Shown: positions 38,615 to 43,445 of the stretch, piece by piece | Layout: the number at the start of each line of letters is the position of its first letter | Position numbering within the stretch: the stretch's first letter is position 1 | The notes under the pieces: generated by a model | The model's input: only the letters and a program-made list of their open reading frames with translations | The model's database searches: none | What the model was told of the DNA's origin: nothing | Program-made: the position numbers and the translations under genes | Assembly: GCA_021831785.1 (NCBI GenBank) | Contig: JAKBMB010000018.1 | Span: 1-43,445, forward strand | Length of the DNA: 43,445 nt | Direction of reading: 5' to 3' | DNA from: Deltaproteobacteria bacterium | GTDB lineage: Bacteria; Desulfobacterota; Binatia; Binatales; Binataceae

Positions 38615-39083
38615 GGTCCGGTGACTTCTTGGGCGGTGATGCTCCTTATAAACCTATGTTGTCGGTGCCGACGGTGTCAAACCCACGCGCCCTTGACCCT
38701 GCGTCGCCGGCCGGCGGCGGATTGGCGCCGTTCCCGATGCTTGAAGCGGCGCGATGACATTCGAGCGTGGCGCAAGCGCTCACCGTGCTGGTATATATCA
38801 TCTCTTGCGCCTCAGGAGCCGACATTCAGCCTCGTGGTTGGAGCAATCAATGGTTTAAGGCAATCAGTGGTAACAAAACCTAGCTATATCGCTTAGGGTA
38901 ATCTTGTCGCCCGCCGACCAGCCGCGCCAGGCGGTTAATTCGCGCCGGCTCGAAGCTTGCCTTAGACCAGGGTTTTGTGAAATTGAAAAGCGCTAACGGG
39001 GTCGGCCAAGACCGCAATAAGGGTGCGGCGCTCCACTGACGCTCGACCCGTGCGCATCCTCGATGGAAGGCACTAGGACCGCA
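38615..39083. other. Divergent intergenic region pcnB / DHH gene
   Basis: 469 bases between two divergent genes, less GC-rich than the surroundings in its middle (TATATATC at about 38792). A minus-strand TTGACA lies at 38680-38675, 61 bases before the pcnB start, but its best -10 partner is poor (TAGGTT, 18-base spacing). I saw no RNA gene or repeat. Confidence 0.4.
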
Positions 39084-40052
39084 ATGAGCCGGCACAGCCG
39101 CCTTAATATACAGGTGGTGAGTCACGGGATGGCCTGTCTTGACGGCGTGGTCGCCGCCGCCGCGGTGTCCCACTTTAACCCGGGCCACCGGGTCACGCCG
39201 ATGTTTGTGACAAATAGCGACACCGATCGCGCGCTGCAAGAGCTCAAGCTCGCGACCGGCGCGCAGAACGAGATTTGGATCACCGATCTATCCTGGCGCT
39301 GTGAGGCAACCGCCTTTCACTTGAATCGCCTCGCCGGCGCCGGCGCCCGCATTCATTGGATCGATCACCATCGGAGCGCGATCTCTCGCGCCGACGCGCC
39401 CGAGTTCCGCGTCGAGTTCGCCGGCAAAGTCTTGTCCGAGGAGTTTTCGGCTGCCCGCCTGGCTTACGACTACCTGCGCCGGCGCAGGCGGGTTGGCGGC
39501 AAGAGCGCGGCCGGCGGCGACTTTTTTCGCATCGTTGAATTGGCTGACGACTACGACCGCTGGGTCCACCGCTTGCCGCAGTCAAGGCGATGGGCGCTGG
39601 CCGTGCAAATCCTGGGGTCCCACGACAGCTATCGCTCGATAACGCGACTCAAACGAGCGGCTTTGAGTCCTAAGCTGGCGGCGGCGGCCAAGGCCGGAGA
39701 GGCCGCGATGCGCCTGAGCCTGGAACGCGCGCGCGCCACCTTGGTCGCGCAGCCTCTGGCCGGCGGGCTCACCCTGCTCGCCGCCTGTTGCGCCGGCTAC
39801 AGCAGCGAAGTCGCCTACGAGCTTTACCGCATCCGTAGCCAAACCGTGGTCGCACTGTTCGATTTGCGTACCGCCGGCGTAAGCCTGCGCCGCAGCGCGG
39901 ACTGCGCCGTCGATCTCTCCGAGCTGGCACGCTCATTCGGCGGCGGCGGACACGCGGCTGCCGCGGGATTCAGGATGGCCGAGCTATGCCGCACTCCGGC
40001 CGAACGGCTGGCCCTGCGCCTGAGCGAAAAGCTGGCCGGCGCGTCCGCCTGA
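39084..40052 (+). CDS. DHH/DHHA1 phosphoesterase
   Basis: A 322-residue protein of the DHH superfamily (nanoRNase, RecJ, cyclic dinucleotide hydrolases). I start at ATG 39084, behind AGGA, rather than 39063. Motif I reads SHGMACLDG (His14, Asp20), lacking one Asp of the common H-x-D-x-D; motif II is TDLS (Asp68), the name motif is IDHHRS (94-96), and the DHHA1 domain ends in FGGGGHAAAAGF. No membrane or sensor domains are seen, so it is a free cytoplasmic enzyme. Likely substrates are short oligonucleotides or nucleotides; the altered motif I means the substrate cannot be named. Confidence 0.88.
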   Translation: MSRHSRLNIQVVSHGMACLDGVVAAAAVSHFNPGHRVTPMFVTNSDTDRALQELKLATGAQNEIWITDLSWRCEATAFHLNRLAGAGARIHWIDHHRSAISRADAPEFRVEFAGKVLSEEFSAARLAYDYLRRRRRVGGKSAAGGDFFRIVELADDYDRWVHRLPQSRRWALAVQILGSHDSYRSITRLKRAALSPKLAAAAKAGEAAMRLSLERARATLVAQPLAGGLTLLAACCAGYSSEVAYELYRIRSQTVVALFDLRTAGVSLRRSADCAVDLSELARSFGGGGHAAAAGFRMAELCRTPAERLALRLSEKLAGASA

Positions 40053-40147
40053 TGCCTTGACGCGGGGGGTCACCCCGGCTTCGCCGACGGCGTTGGAAAT
40101 GGGCCGGCGACCACGCCGGGCACGGCCCACTCGCAACGAGTCGGCGC

Positions 40148-40486
40148 GCTGCGTGCCAAGGATATCGGCTGCGCCAGGAGTTCATCACGCCCTATACCCC
40201 GGAGCCAAACGCCATCGTCGAGCGCTTCTTTCGCGGTCTCACGGAAGAGTGCGTCTGGCAGCACAATTTCGCGAGCTTTGCCCAGGCGCACACCGCGACC
40301 GCGCGGGCTCCCGGGTCCTACGATCGCGAGCTCCCCCACCAACCGCTCGGCTACCGGAGCCCCAACCAATTGCGGGCGCAATCATTGCAAGCTACGACTT
40401 CATTTCCGGGGATACTACAAGCGCTCCGGCGGCCCGACCGTCTGAAGCTGTTAAGGTTGAAGGTTTGGAGCCAGTCAGTCAGGTGA
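40148..40486 (+). pseudogene. IS3-family transposase, 3' remnant
   Basis: Without a start codon the frame reads YRLRQEFITPYTPEPN, then ERFFRGLTEECVWQHNFASF and PHQPLGYRSPNQLRAQ, the C-terminal end of an IS3-type DDE integrase, and stops at TGA 40484-40486. The catalytic Glu (IVERFF) is present. The part between NFASF and PHQPLGY has the right length, but its Trp-rich helix is replaced by low-similarity residues. The two upstream Asp, OrfA and both terminal repeats were not found, so it is a decayed fragment. Confidence 0.8.
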
Positions 40487-40660
40487 TCCGTCGTTGCGAA
40501 TTTGCACGCGCGGACTCACGCCGCCAGCCGGCAAGCAGCGCCTAGATACAGCCGGCCTCCGCGACTTCGCCTGGCGCAAACGCTGACAGGTGCTCCTGCG
40601 GAAGCTGAACGCCGTCCTTTTCAGCCACCAGCGTTCCTCGGCTCTCTGCCGAATTTAGAA
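40487..40660. other. Gap between transposase remnant and vapC
   Basis: No accepted gene. A startless minus-strand segment (about 40650 to TAG 40542) reads like a protein piece (TLVAEKDGVQLPQEHLSAF) and overlaps the end of vapC in another frame; it may be a remnant or chance. Confidence 0.3.
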
Positions 40661-41092
40661 TTAAGTTTGGCTTAGCGTTTCAAGACCACGGGCTTGCGCC
40701 GCGACGTTCAACGCGCCATCGAAGCAGGCGAACGTCACCGTCGTGCGGAGCACCGCTTGGAGAGAATCGGCCGCCGCGAGATGGAGCGCGTCAAAAGCAC
40801 GCAGAGCATGTTCGTCGCACATTTCGCCGGCTTTGCGAACCGAGGCTTCGTCAATCGGCAACCGATGCAATCTCACCCAATCCCGTTCGAATGCTTGTTT
40901 GCCTCTTTTCAGATCGGCAGCTCCAATTTCCCCACCGCGCCTTTTTCTGGCCAGCGCCGAACGTGTTTCAACGTAGGACAACAGACTGGTGGCGATGAGA
41001 TTGGCATCCGCCACTGCTTGCCGCACAATCTTGCTGCCCGCTTCCTGCGCGTAGAGCTTCACCAGCGCCGACGTGTCCAAGTAAAGAATCAA
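40661..41092 (-). CDS. vapC: PIN-domain toxin, VapC-like
   Basis: A 143-residue PIN-domain ribonuclease. The acidic site is visible as Asp6 (YLDTSALVK), Glu42 (SYVETRSALAR), Asp101 (AFDALHLAAA) and Asp125 (FACFDGAL). VapC toxins cut initiator tRNA, rRNA or other structured RNA and stop translation when the antitoxin is lost. It starts with TTG 41092, overlapping the antitoxin stop as TTGA, which keeps toxin translation coupled and low. It lies beside a transposase remnant, typical of a mobile stabilisation cassette. Confidence 0.9.
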   Translation of the reverse strand: MILYLDTSALVKLYAQEAGSKIVRQAVADANLIATSLLSYVETRSALARKRRGGEIGAADLKRGKQAFERDWVRLHRLPIDEASVRKAGEMCDEHALRAFDALHLAAADSLQAVLRTTVTFACFDGALNVAAQARGLETLSQT

Positions 41093-41379
41093 CGGCGGTC
41101 CTCTAAGACCATCTCGGCAAGCGTTTTCTGCCCGGGCCGGATTCGTATCGCTCGCCTAGCGCCGAGCGGTTTGCCGCCGGTGCCTAGCCAAACGCCAGGA
41201 ACAAGCTTCAGCCGGCGCAATAGCTCCTCACCGCCCGGCTCTTCGCCTGCTTCTTCCGGAACGGCCAACAGACGAACGACTGGCCGTCCCCGCGACGTGA
41301 CCACCACGTCGCGGCCCGCGCGGGCGTCCTTCAAATACCGGGAGAGCTTCGCCTTGAAGTCGCGCACCGACACCTTCAT
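41089..41379 (-). CDS. vapB: Antitoxin, Phd/YefM-type partner of VapC
   Basis: A 96-residue protein. The N-terminal MKVSVRDFKAKLSRYLKDA and VVVTSRGRPVVRLLAV fit the Phd/YefM DNA-binding fold; the C-terminal half, with PGQKTLAEMVLEDRR at the end, would wrap the toxin. I prefer ATG 41379 to GTG 41385, because the promoter -10 box abuts the GTG and predicts an RNA starting at about 41379. It is first in the operon and probably represses its own promoter together with the toxin. Confidence 0.87.
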   Translation of the reverse strand: MKVSVRDFKAKLSRYLKDARAGRDVVVTSRGRPVVRLLAVPEEAGEEPGGEELLRRLKLVPGVWLGTGGKPLGARRAIRIRPGQKTLAEMVLEDRR

Positions 41380-41385
41380 GACCAC

Positions 41386-41414
41386 ATTCTATCTTTTTGT
41401 GACTACAACTCCAA
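41386..41414 (-). promoter_or_regulatory. vapBC promoter
   Basis: On the minus strand TTGGAG (41414-41409) and TAGAAT (41391-41386) are separated by 17 bases; the -10 box matches five of six consensus bases and the -35 three. The RNA start would fall at or within a few bases of ATG 41379, so the antitoxin mRNA would be leaderless. No ribosome-binding site is seen. Confidence 0.45.
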
Positions 41415-41707
41415 ATTCGGCGTATAACTCCACGGCGCACCTCGGCACACTCCGTTGCTCAGGCCAGCCGGCGACCGCTGGAGGCCATCTCGGCGGGCGC
41501 CGCGCCCCGCGGACAATCACAACGTCCCGTCGAGCGCTTGCCCTCGAAATCAGATTCGGGTTGACCCGTCGATGCTCGCTCTAGCGCTTGACCTACGATA
41601 GCAAACCGTGTAGCTGAACGCCTCATAGTCGTTTTCAAGACGACTTCGGGGCAGACCATAAGTCGGCCCCGGCGGGGGAGCAAGTGCGCTGGAGATCCAC
41701 ATTTGCC
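41415..41707. other. Gap between vapBC promoter and secreted-protein gene
   Basis: No gene recognised. TTGACC (41588-41593) could be a plus-strand -35 box for the gene at 41708, but no good -10 box stands at the right distance. Confidence 0.3.
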
Positions 41708-42717
41708 ATGAACGAAAGGCTTGAAATCCCGTGGCCAATAATCGTGCTGGCACTGATTGTCGGCGTGTCGAACGCCTATGCGGCTACTTGCGGCAGCGGC
41801 GAAACATTGGAGACCGGAGGAGATGGCGCGGACCTCGAAGTCACCGGCGGCGTCTGCAGGGTCACGGGCGGTACCTACGTCTACGGCAACGTAAACATCT
41901 ATAACAAGGGCACGCTCCAGTTCGAGGACGCGCAAACCGATTTTTGGGCAAGGTCGATTCTGGTGGAGAACACGGGAACTCTGCGCGCCGGCACTCCGCG
42001 TGACCCTATCGGGACTAAGGGGAAAGGTCGCAACGGCACCAGCTCCGAGGTGCTCACGATTTACCTCTACGGGGCGGACCAGGGCGCGCAGTATCCGTCT
42101 TTAAGGCAGGTGAGGCATATTACGTGTTCCTGGTCTTCGCCAAGCTCACCACCAGGCAGACGTATCAGATGTATGTCGGAAAGACGTTTGACCCAAAAAC
42201 ACGCGTGTTCCTGACCCAGGTAGAGCTACCGGGCTCCTATATCTTTCACGACCGAGCCGCAGCGGATTGGCCGCTAGGAGAGGAGGCACGGCAGTTTGAT
42301 CCGGCCGGCGGAATCCCGACCGTCACGCTCGACATGAGCAAGATTCCCAACTTCAAAACAAACTACGACAGTGAAAGGGCGAACAAATGCCGGCCAATCA
42401 GCTTCTGTTCATGGAGTGGAACGAGTTGCGAATGCAGCGCGAGTCCGTTCCCGGAGTTTCTCAAAACCGAATGCACGGCAGACGAAAGTCGCATATGTAG
42501 CTGGGCGGTCAAGGAGGTGGACTGCCCGCTCGGCGGCTGTTACGGATTCGGGGTCAGGCTGGCAGATGATTTCAAGACATTTGACACGCCGCTCCCGCCG
42601 CCGAAGGCAAATACGTTCATCTCAACTATGAGCGACTGGGCTGTGCCTTTCAAAAACATAAGCGACAAAACAGATGCGTGTTATTACGGTGACCTCACCC
42701 CAAAGCCGGTCTTCTGA
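41708..42717 (+). pseudogene. Broken secreted beta-helix / Cys-rich protein
   Basis: From ATG 41708 a signal peptide (IIVLALIVGVSNAYA, cut before ATC) leads into a G8-like beta-helix: GGTYVYGNVNIYNKGTLQFE, then DFWARSILVENTGTLRAGTP and LTIYLYGADQG. Soon after (about 42080-42110) this frame becomes nonsense and closes at 42214. In the -1 frame a sensible sequence begins near VFKAGEAYYVFLVFAK and runs to TGA 42717, with Cys-rich parts (CRPISFCSWSGTSCECS, CPLGGCYGFGV). Both halves look like parts of one exported protein; the expected middle is missing, so an internal deletion with frameshift is likelier than a one-base error. Function is unknown. Confidence 0.6.
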
Positions 42718-42719
42718 AA

Positions 42720-42823
42720 CGCACCGGCGCTTGAGCCGGTAGGCGGCTTCGGCCCTAGGCGACGTCATCAGCACAGATGCGGCGCGCCGGTGCGGTCGCG
42801 CGAAAGTCGCGCCAGCCGGTGCG
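42720..42823. repeat. GC-rich inverted-repeat cluster
   Basis: CGCACCGGC (42720-42728) occurs again inverted at 42786-42794 and 42815-42823. The first copy also forms ACCGGC-GCTTGA-GCCGGT (42723-42740), and between the inverted copies lies GCGCGA-AAG-TCGCGC. The cluster directly follows a stop codon, as REP-type elements and structured 3' ends do. There is no T tract. Confidence 0.45.
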
Positions 42824-43213
42824 CGACAAGACCCAGGCCGCCGTGTCCCGTATTTGCAACGTTTAATCGCACTCGCTTGCCTCAAGTCCTAGCTGTGCGC
42901 CAGCCTAATCAGGTGATAGCCGCACAAAAGAGTACAAAACGAAAGCTCACCGCAGCCCGTGTGGCAAAAACGTCTACTTCTTTGTTTCACCGCCAGACAT
43001 GCCGCCGCCACCGCGCTCAAAACGTGTCACGATTGAAACATCGGCGACACGATTTGCGCGCTCGGCAGGGCGCCGGCGCTTTCGCCATCGTCGAGCGAAG
43101 GCGGTTAATTATCCGCCGCCGTCTTTTCGGCGACTTTGAAAGGCTATCCTTAACAGACCCCAGTCTGTTCGCTCAACTCGGTCCCCAAATTGCAGCGTCG
43201 CAAAAAGACGCAA
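42824..43213. other. Gap upstream of sigma-54 activator
   Basis: No gene that I can support. It holds a nested hairpin (GTGTC-A-CGAT ... ATCG-GC-GACAC, 43024-43050), an inverted repeat ACAGAC-CCCA-GTCTGT (43153-43168) and a possible sigma-54 promoter (listed separately). Confidence 0.4.
43179..43194 (+). promoter_or_regulatory. Possible sigma-54 promoter
   Basis: GG at 43180-43181 and GC at 43192-43193 are ten bases apart, the diagnostic -24/-12 spacing, and the -12 part reads TTGCA. The -24 part (CGGTCC) is poor beyond the GG. Transcription would begin near 43205, only about nine bases before the ATG of the regulator. Confidence 0.3.
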
Positions 43214-43445
43214 ATGGACCACAGGGAAAATTCGGCTCCGAGCGGCATCGGCGGCGAGCCCGAGGCGGGCGAGCGATGGTTTGATGTGGAGGGGTTGGCG
43301 GCCGCGGGGGAGCGGCTTGGGCAGTTGGTGGGGTGCTCGGAGTTGATGCGCGGGGTATTCGCGGCGATTCGCTGGCTGGGCCCGTACAAGACCACGGTGT
43401 TGATTCAGGGCGAGTCGGGCACCGGCAAGGAGCTGGTGGCGCGCG
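43214..43445 (+). CDS. Sigma-54-dependent transcriptional activator (partial)
   Basis: The first 77 residues of an AAA+ enhancer-binding protein, cut by the right edge. After about 35 residues without a receiver, PAS or GAF domain, the ATPase begins with LVGCSELMRGVFAAIRWLG and the Walker A GESGTGKE. Such proteins remodel sigma-54 polymerase using ATP. A PspF-like protein lacking an N-terminal sensor is possible; a C-terminal FHA or DNA-binding domain cannot be judged. ATG 43214 has no good ribosome-binding site, so the start is provisional. Confidence 0.85.
   Translation, partial: MDHRENSAPSGIGGEPEAGERWFDVEGLAAAGERLGQLVGCSELMRGVFAAIRWLGPYKTTVLIQGESGTGKELVAR

Follow-up and report, generated by a model that had tools for sequence, protein, structure and literature searches.

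A probable internal-deletion pseudogene of the G8/CEMIP-beta-helix family in a Binataceae contig, and its intact bacterial relatives

RESULTS

The locus and its flanking genes

We analyzed a stretch of 43,445 nucleotides from a Deltaproteobacteria bacterium (hereafter, the window), whose right-hand part contains the features listed in Table 1. A DHHA1-domain gene, matched in 39 of 43 genomes, and the start of a sigma-54 activator gene border a stretch of ~3.1 kb, which contains a PIN/Phd gene pair and the gene remnant described below. In the former (40661–41385), a PIN-domain toxin gene adjoins a Phd/YefM-type antitoxin gene, which identifies the two as a toxin–antitoxin pair. The spacing between the DHH gene and the sigma-54 activator gene was ~440 bp in G001, a genome of the same genus, and ~955 bp in G015, compared with ~3.1 kb in the window, and the intergenic stretches of these two genomes exhibited no match to the toxin, the antitoxin or the G8 pieces. 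The extra stretch may have been gained by the lineage of the window or lost by the others. Neither promoter-like nor terminator-like sites exceeded chance (one promoter-like site, against a mean of 0.5 in shuffled sequences; two terminator-like sites, against a mean of 2.4).

Table 1. Features of the remnant and its surroundings, in positions of the window
Feature	Position	Strand	Basis or remark
DHHA1-domain gene, left flank conserved in relatives	39063..40052	+	Pfam DHHA1 2.2e-6
Stretch between DHH gene and sigma-54 regulator, absent from same-genus genome G001	40053..43130	.	Locus comparison
PIN-domain (VapC-like) toxin	40661..41092	-	Pfam PIN 3.2e-13
Phd/YefM-type antitoxin partner	41089..41385	-	Pfam PhdYeFM_antitox 1.4e-9
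Signal peptide (MNERLEIPWPIIVLALIVGVSNAYAA)	41708..41785	+	Export signal of the broken gene; read from the translation by eye
N-terminal remnant: signal peptide and G8 region	41708..42088	+	Pfam G8, family profile and L031 match
Predicted product from ATG 41708: ~127 residues of N remnant and ~40 out-of-frame residues, then stop	41708..42214	+	ORF list
Putative deletion joint: ~2.9-3.2 kb of coding sequence lost, frame changed	42085..42091	+	Ends of N and C homology
C-terminal remnant: Cys-rich domain, predominantly beta, that runs up to the original stop codon	42091..42717	+	Family profile, L031 match and predicted structure
Start of sigma-54 activator gene, right flank, cut by contig end	43214..43445	+	Pfam Sigma54_activat 2.6e-6

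Positions 43258–43445 of the window and the end of another contig of the same assembly (G000:C7; L188:8633-8820) carry nearly identical copies of the sigma-54 activator gene (98.9% over 188 bases), and both contigs end there. Contigs of G001 (C120) and G015 (C20, C10) likewise end in a sigma-54 activator gene or a relative of it. In several species, assemblies thus seem to be interrupted at a duplicated sigma-54 regulator.

Two halves of one exported protein

The remnant consists of two open halves whose reading frames are offset by two bases. The N half is open from the ATG at 41708, and its translation exhibits, by inspection, a charged start followed by a hydrophobic run and an AYA-A end. 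Its match to Pfam G8 (5.8e-6, 26.6 bits against a cut-off of 22.9) covers 46 of the 124 profile positions. The C half remains open up to the TGA at 42715–42717. The first-pass annotation had proposed an exported, Cys-rich and G8-like protein; the translation supports the first two properties and the Pfam score the third. The C half matched no Pfam family at E ≤ 1, and NCBIfam returned no named family for the two halves and three intact or partial relatives, with a single match at chance level. The predicted structure of the C half, a fair model (pLDDT 85.6, pTM 0.73), had no counterpart at E ≤ 0.001 among solved structures; this negative result carries little weight, as this piece may be devoid of the first strands of its domain.

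When the letters were shuffled, the openness of the N half was equalled in 67 of 2000 cases, which by itself is weak to modest evidence, and that of the C half in 1 of 2000, which is stronger evidence. On the evidence of the sequences, it is homology, rather than openness, that proves both halves to be genuine. Searched separately, both halves yielded intact single-frame relatives, and the closest of these was the same protein for both: residues 27–152 of L031 (1,357 aa) match the N half (51% identity, E 4e-35) and residues 1136–1344 match the C half (51% identity, E 3e-68). Other relatives also align the two halves at opposite ends of single proteins. The proposal that 41708–42088 and 42091–42717 are the two ends of one protein is thereby confirmed.

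A profile of the family gave the same picture. The N half corresponds to model positions 34–156 (41711–42088) and the C half to positions 1124–1337 (42085–42699), while the profile found no trace at the locus of positions 157–1123, which represent the CEMIP beta-helix. According to the family profile and the profiles of the separate halves, the N homology ends at 42088 and the C homology begins at 42085–42091, which agrees with the earlier placement of the joint within 42080–42110. The window copy is, in short, a broken remnant of the G8/CEMIP-beta-helix family and no working member of it; a large coding part is missing compared with the homologues and the frame is disrupted, the two features by which a pseudogene is recognized.

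Spacing of the halves in relatives

We ran separate N-half and C-half profiles over 41 genomes of the host family. Each profile matched 21 of the 41 genomes, 20 of which were common to both. Among the 22 contigs with both halves, the spacing between them was 2,865–3,156 nt in 21; in the window it is 2 nt, in accordance with the internal deletion suspected in the first-pass annotation. Four contigs exhibited the C half only (G029:C346, G029:C268, G001:C60 and G020:C23) and five the N half only (G029:C359, G029:C374, G028:C157, G026:C90 and G026:C22, the last three weakly).

We also inspected a set of named loci, in which 77 ORFs contained either half, 62 both halves in one frame, 902–1,161 residues apart, and 15 one half. 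Because these loci were fetched by motifs in the deleted middle and are thus biased towards intact copies, this set alone could not reveal joined forms; the host-family search with half profiles is free of this bias. In a search of 145 genomes (the own genome and relatives), the C half was found in 25, and among the 32 C-half matches listed, 23 lay in open frames of 1,335–1,519 codons, the remainder being shorter, cut by a contig end, or fragments.

These results make it very probable that the window holds a pseudogene, namely a large exported G8/beta-helix paralogue that lost ~2.9–3.2 kb by one internal deletion, the halves being joined out of frame.

Alternative explanations of the joint

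An assembly artefact, in which the genome contains an intact gene and the assembler skipped its middle or joined the sequences of two strains, is unlikely. In its favour, the assembly consists of 34 contigs, and the gene in which the window contig ends has a second, nearly identical copy. However, apart from the diverged paralogue on contig C24, no other contig of this assembly, which is 96% complete, carries the missing middle: the profile search detected just that paralogue and the two halves in the window, by which a relocation of the middle to another place in the genome is also rejected. The joint is clean to within ~7 bases. Moreover, the order of the flanking genes, from the DHH gene to the sigma-54 gene, is the same as in G001 and G015, which speaks against a random chimera, and the sister species has a second internally deleted remnant, albeit one that is likewise known from an assembly.

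We next consider a reduced but functional gene, in which a secreted G8 piece, or a C domain from an internal start (GTG 42124), would still be made and used. The two halves are nearly undamaged at conserved positions: of the columns conserved at 85% or more, the window keeps 43 of 44 in total. In the N half, compared with 34 other rows, 23 of 24 are unchanged, and only a Gly column close to the end differs, where the window has Glu; in the C half, compared with 59 other rows, the figure is 20 of 20. In principle, a G8 fragment might still be made and secreted. A recent deletion, however, accounts for this conservation equally well. In addition, the G8 domain of TMEM2 belongs to a continuous beta-helix (PMC10206443), so that the G8 piece in the window should not fold alone. 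The C piece has no signal peptide of its own and, judging from the strand lists of predicted models, its domain seems to be missing the initial strands, and this form was observed in none of the 21 other two-half contigs. We consider such a gene very unlikely.

If a short two-domain protein had suffered a one-base frameshift, or if its sequence contained an error of one base, two otherwise open halves separated by a single frame change would result, as observed here. Relatives with directly joined halves, which the first-pass annotation had named as the mark of this case, were however looked for and not found (0 of 21 other host-family contigs; 0 of the 62 two-half ORFs from named loci, in which intact copies are over-represented), which leaves this alternative without support and with next to no probability.

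Returning to the internal deletion, the 43 unchanged columns indicate that decay apart from the deletion has been slight, and the remnant is probably an internal-deletion pseudogene of young age, as far as sequence conservation can tell. Within 40000–43445, we found 7 direct and 10 inverted repeat pairs, none with a copy at the joint. The search for the sequence before the deletion and for breakpoint repeats in it yielded no copy close enough in DNA; the best protein identity in the C half was 53%.

Paralogues and recurrent breakage

In a tree of the C domain (66 rows), the C half of the window grouped with three copies from the host family (support 100/98), one of which is intact (G022:C30), one frameshifted (G038:C140) and one cut by the contig start (G029:C346). 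The genome of the window also encodes an intact paralogue of 1,335 aa on another contig (G000:C24). This paralogue has the same domains as the rest of the family and, unlike the window copy, is complete, but it is only distantly related to the window copy and belongs to another branch, where it pairs with G001:C149 (100/100). The possibility that the window holds a recent copy of the C24 paralogue is accordingly rejected by the tree.

Broken copies were also observed elsewhere. G001:C60 (L049:1628-2294), from the sister species, is a second remnant that exhibits a separate internal loss and frame change and is close in wording to the C24 type. In G031:C77, 234 open codons are followed by an in-frame TAG. 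Breakage of copies seems to recur in the G8/beta-helix family, and some of the broken copies could be assembly errors.

Two further observations were made along the way. Beside the intact C24 paralogue lies an in-frame ORF of 180 aa that resembles GMC oxidoreductases (L002:2225-2767), which keeps apparently just the FAD-binding start (by eye) and the C-terminus (Pfam GMC_oxred_C); it may be another gene that lost its middle. In the tree, the intact copy from L113, a metagenome bin titled Bordetella parapertussis, groups with copies from Lysobacterales/Dokdonella, and the label of this bin looks doubtful.

Domains and structure of the intact family

Intact proteins of the family are ~1,350–1,500 residues long. 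All 11 intact relatives scanned exhibited both G8 and CEMIP_beta-hel (E 1.2e-40 to 6e-50 for the latter) above the Pfam cut-offs, a combination in common with the animal proteins TMEM2 (CEMIP2) and CEMIP (KIAA1199). One intact relative (L034:2295-6542, G048) carries RTX calcium-binding repeats at its C-terminus, which suggests type I secretion in that case; some other loci adjoin type II secretion genes.

Compared with solved structures, the family profile matched only human TMEM2 (8c6i, 4e-51) at E ≤ 0.01. We predicted a model for residues 48–1247 of L150, an intact relative from a Burkholderiales MAG (pLDDT 88.8, pTM 0.92), for which TMEM2 was the top Foldseek match (E 1.2e-34), the next entry other than TMEM2 reaching 2.5e-7. 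VIA-align superposed TMEM2 on this model with Z 25.8 and 4.0 Å rmsd over 809 aligned residues. The second-ranking structure, the alginate lyase 6kfn, reached Z 20.2 with 268 residues aligned, followed by tailspikes and PL6 lyases. PL6 alginate lyases and phage tailspikes thus have the same kind of right-handed beta-helix; nevertheless, identity to beta-helix polysaccharide lyases and depolymerases is ~10% over the helix, and a shared fold alone shows no function. The earlier suggestion of a surface or matrix protein can accordingly be sharpened to a TMEM2/CEMIP-like G8 and beta-helix protein.

The bacterial proteins nevertheless differ from TMEM2 in several respects. Where TMEM2 has ~180 residues, comprising an inserted small domain and a lectin-like domain (PMC10206443), the bacterial profile has ~30 positions: the segment of the 8c6i chain from residue 158 to 338 falls between profile positions 190 and 221, which leaves too little room for the lectin-like insertion. 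The short segment before that gap scores weakly by itself (i-Evalue 25), but its FG-K and GGTL-L-G pattern is clearly recognizable. The 11 Pfam scans of intact relatives found no further domain at this site. The bacterial family appears, from these alignments, to be devoid of the lectin-like insertion of TMEM2, and because of this difference we class its members as relatives of TMEM2/CEMIP and not as TMEM2/CEMIP proper. Furthermore, TMEM2 is anchored in the membrane, whereas inspection of the bacterial proteins reveals a signal peptide, and their C-terminal part is Cys-rich and outside Pfam coverage. The window copy, in turn, differs from TMEM2/CEMIP in having lost nearly the entire helix.

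Residues shared with TMEM2

We defined conserved residues as those invariant or present in at least 90% of 55 bacterial rows. Those that are also kept in TMEM2 include the following: Thr and Asp of TDY; Arg of RA; the two Gly of FGGH; Tyr and both His of YPVHFH; Ser and Arg of S-x-x-R; His of the following H-x-T; and Gly, His, Glu, Asp, Glu and Asn of GHxFxLEDGxExxN. Some bacterial invariants are not shared: TMEM2 has other residues in place of the His that follows TDY and the Asp that precedes S-x-x-R. These shared His/Arg/Glu-rich motifs of the helix, all of which lie in the part deleted from the window copy, are candidates for an active groove or active site.

Distribution and neighbouring genes

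Relatives are encoded in 337 of the 409 stretches matched in the genome collection, where the counts refer to stretches rather than genes or species and a single gene may be matched by two patterns. Among the 74 loci retained, Pseudomonadota, Acidobacteriota, Dadabacteria, Methylomirabilota and Binatota-like MAGs are represented; carriers include the cultured Nitrobacter and Thiocapsa. The first-pass annotation had described a large, uncharacterised family of this lineage; the size and the lack of characterisation hold, but the spread over several phyla indicates that the family is not lineage-specific. Within the phylum, PF24606 was found above the cut-off in 4 of 198 genomes (5 at E ≤ 0.001), compared with 21 of 41 genomes of the host family by the C-half profile, and in 1 of 14 control genomes (Deinobacterium chartae). 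A viral origin was considered and rejected, as 16 pattern matches obtained by scanning viral contigs with motifs of the intact middle included no relative.

Neighbour clusters were built from the ORFs beside the 74 named loci, with shadow-frame clusters ignored. A BBP7 outer-membrane porin lies beside 8 of the 74 loci (two scanned); in the six listed, its gene is directly upstream and has the same orientation. Examples of this gene for a BBP7-type beta-barrel porin directly upstream of the intact gene are L150:4752-5996 and L118:4547-5962; the two genes possibly form one operon. An NHL/Vgb-lyase propeller protein is encoded beside 9 of the 74 loci (two scanned), and among the six listed its gene is downstream on the same strand in three and upstream on the other strand in three. 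Type II secretion proteins E and F are found beside five and four of the 74 loci, respectively (one of each scanned). These neighbours, each at a minority of loci, fit an exported role.

DISCUSSION

The evidence is best explained by one deletion that would have taken away almost the whole beta-helix of a paralogue of ~1,350–1,450 residues, by which the G8 end would have become fused out of frame to the C-terminal Cys-rich domain. This deletion would be recent, and it is expected to be inactivating because the helix with the putative active groove is gone and translation would stop after ~40 out-of-frame residues. The pseudogene as such is ordinary. Being one case in a family with recurrent breakage, the broken paralogue itself is of little weight; the intact family is moderately interesting.

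The intact protein is most likely secreted and, as judged from its predicted fold and its neighbours, would bind or cleave an extracellular polysaccharide of the acidic or amino-sugar type, with the beta-helix groove as the site of action. The paper of He et al. 2006 defining the G8 domain reportedly may already mention bacterial members. In our search of the literature, whose coverage was partial, no paper on bacterial relatives of CEMIP/TMEM2 was found by title or by the start of the abstract, and the excerpts available of PMC13424714 and PMC13113925 do not mention such relatives. The intact family represents a known and widespread domain combination, the bacterial members of which are apparently unstudied.

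Whether TMEM2 itself binds or cleaves hyaluronan is disputed (PMC10206443; PMC10474455). In the TMEM2 structure paper, the active site could not be assigned and no activity was seen (PMC10206443), whereas another group described the activity as intrinsic to TMEM2 (PMC10474455). A bolder proposal, which we put forward as speculative and rather doubtful, is that the intact bacterial family would be a minimal TMEM2/CEMIP machine that is secreted, consists of G8 and beta-helix without the lectin-like insertion, and acts as a lyase or hydrolase on polysaccharides; the residues shared with TMEM2 (Tyr and both His of YPVHFH, Ser and Arg of S-x-x-R, His of H-x-T, and His, Glu, Asp and Glu of GHxFxLEDGxE) might then mark the missing active site of TMEM2, and the window might present the same helix discarded as a unit at the death of a gene. 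Whether TMEM2 and CEMIP themselves cut hyaluronan, and by which residues, is a matter of dispute, and the secreted bacterial relatives lacking the lectin-like insertion, which could be produced in quantity, would offer a direct test of this question.
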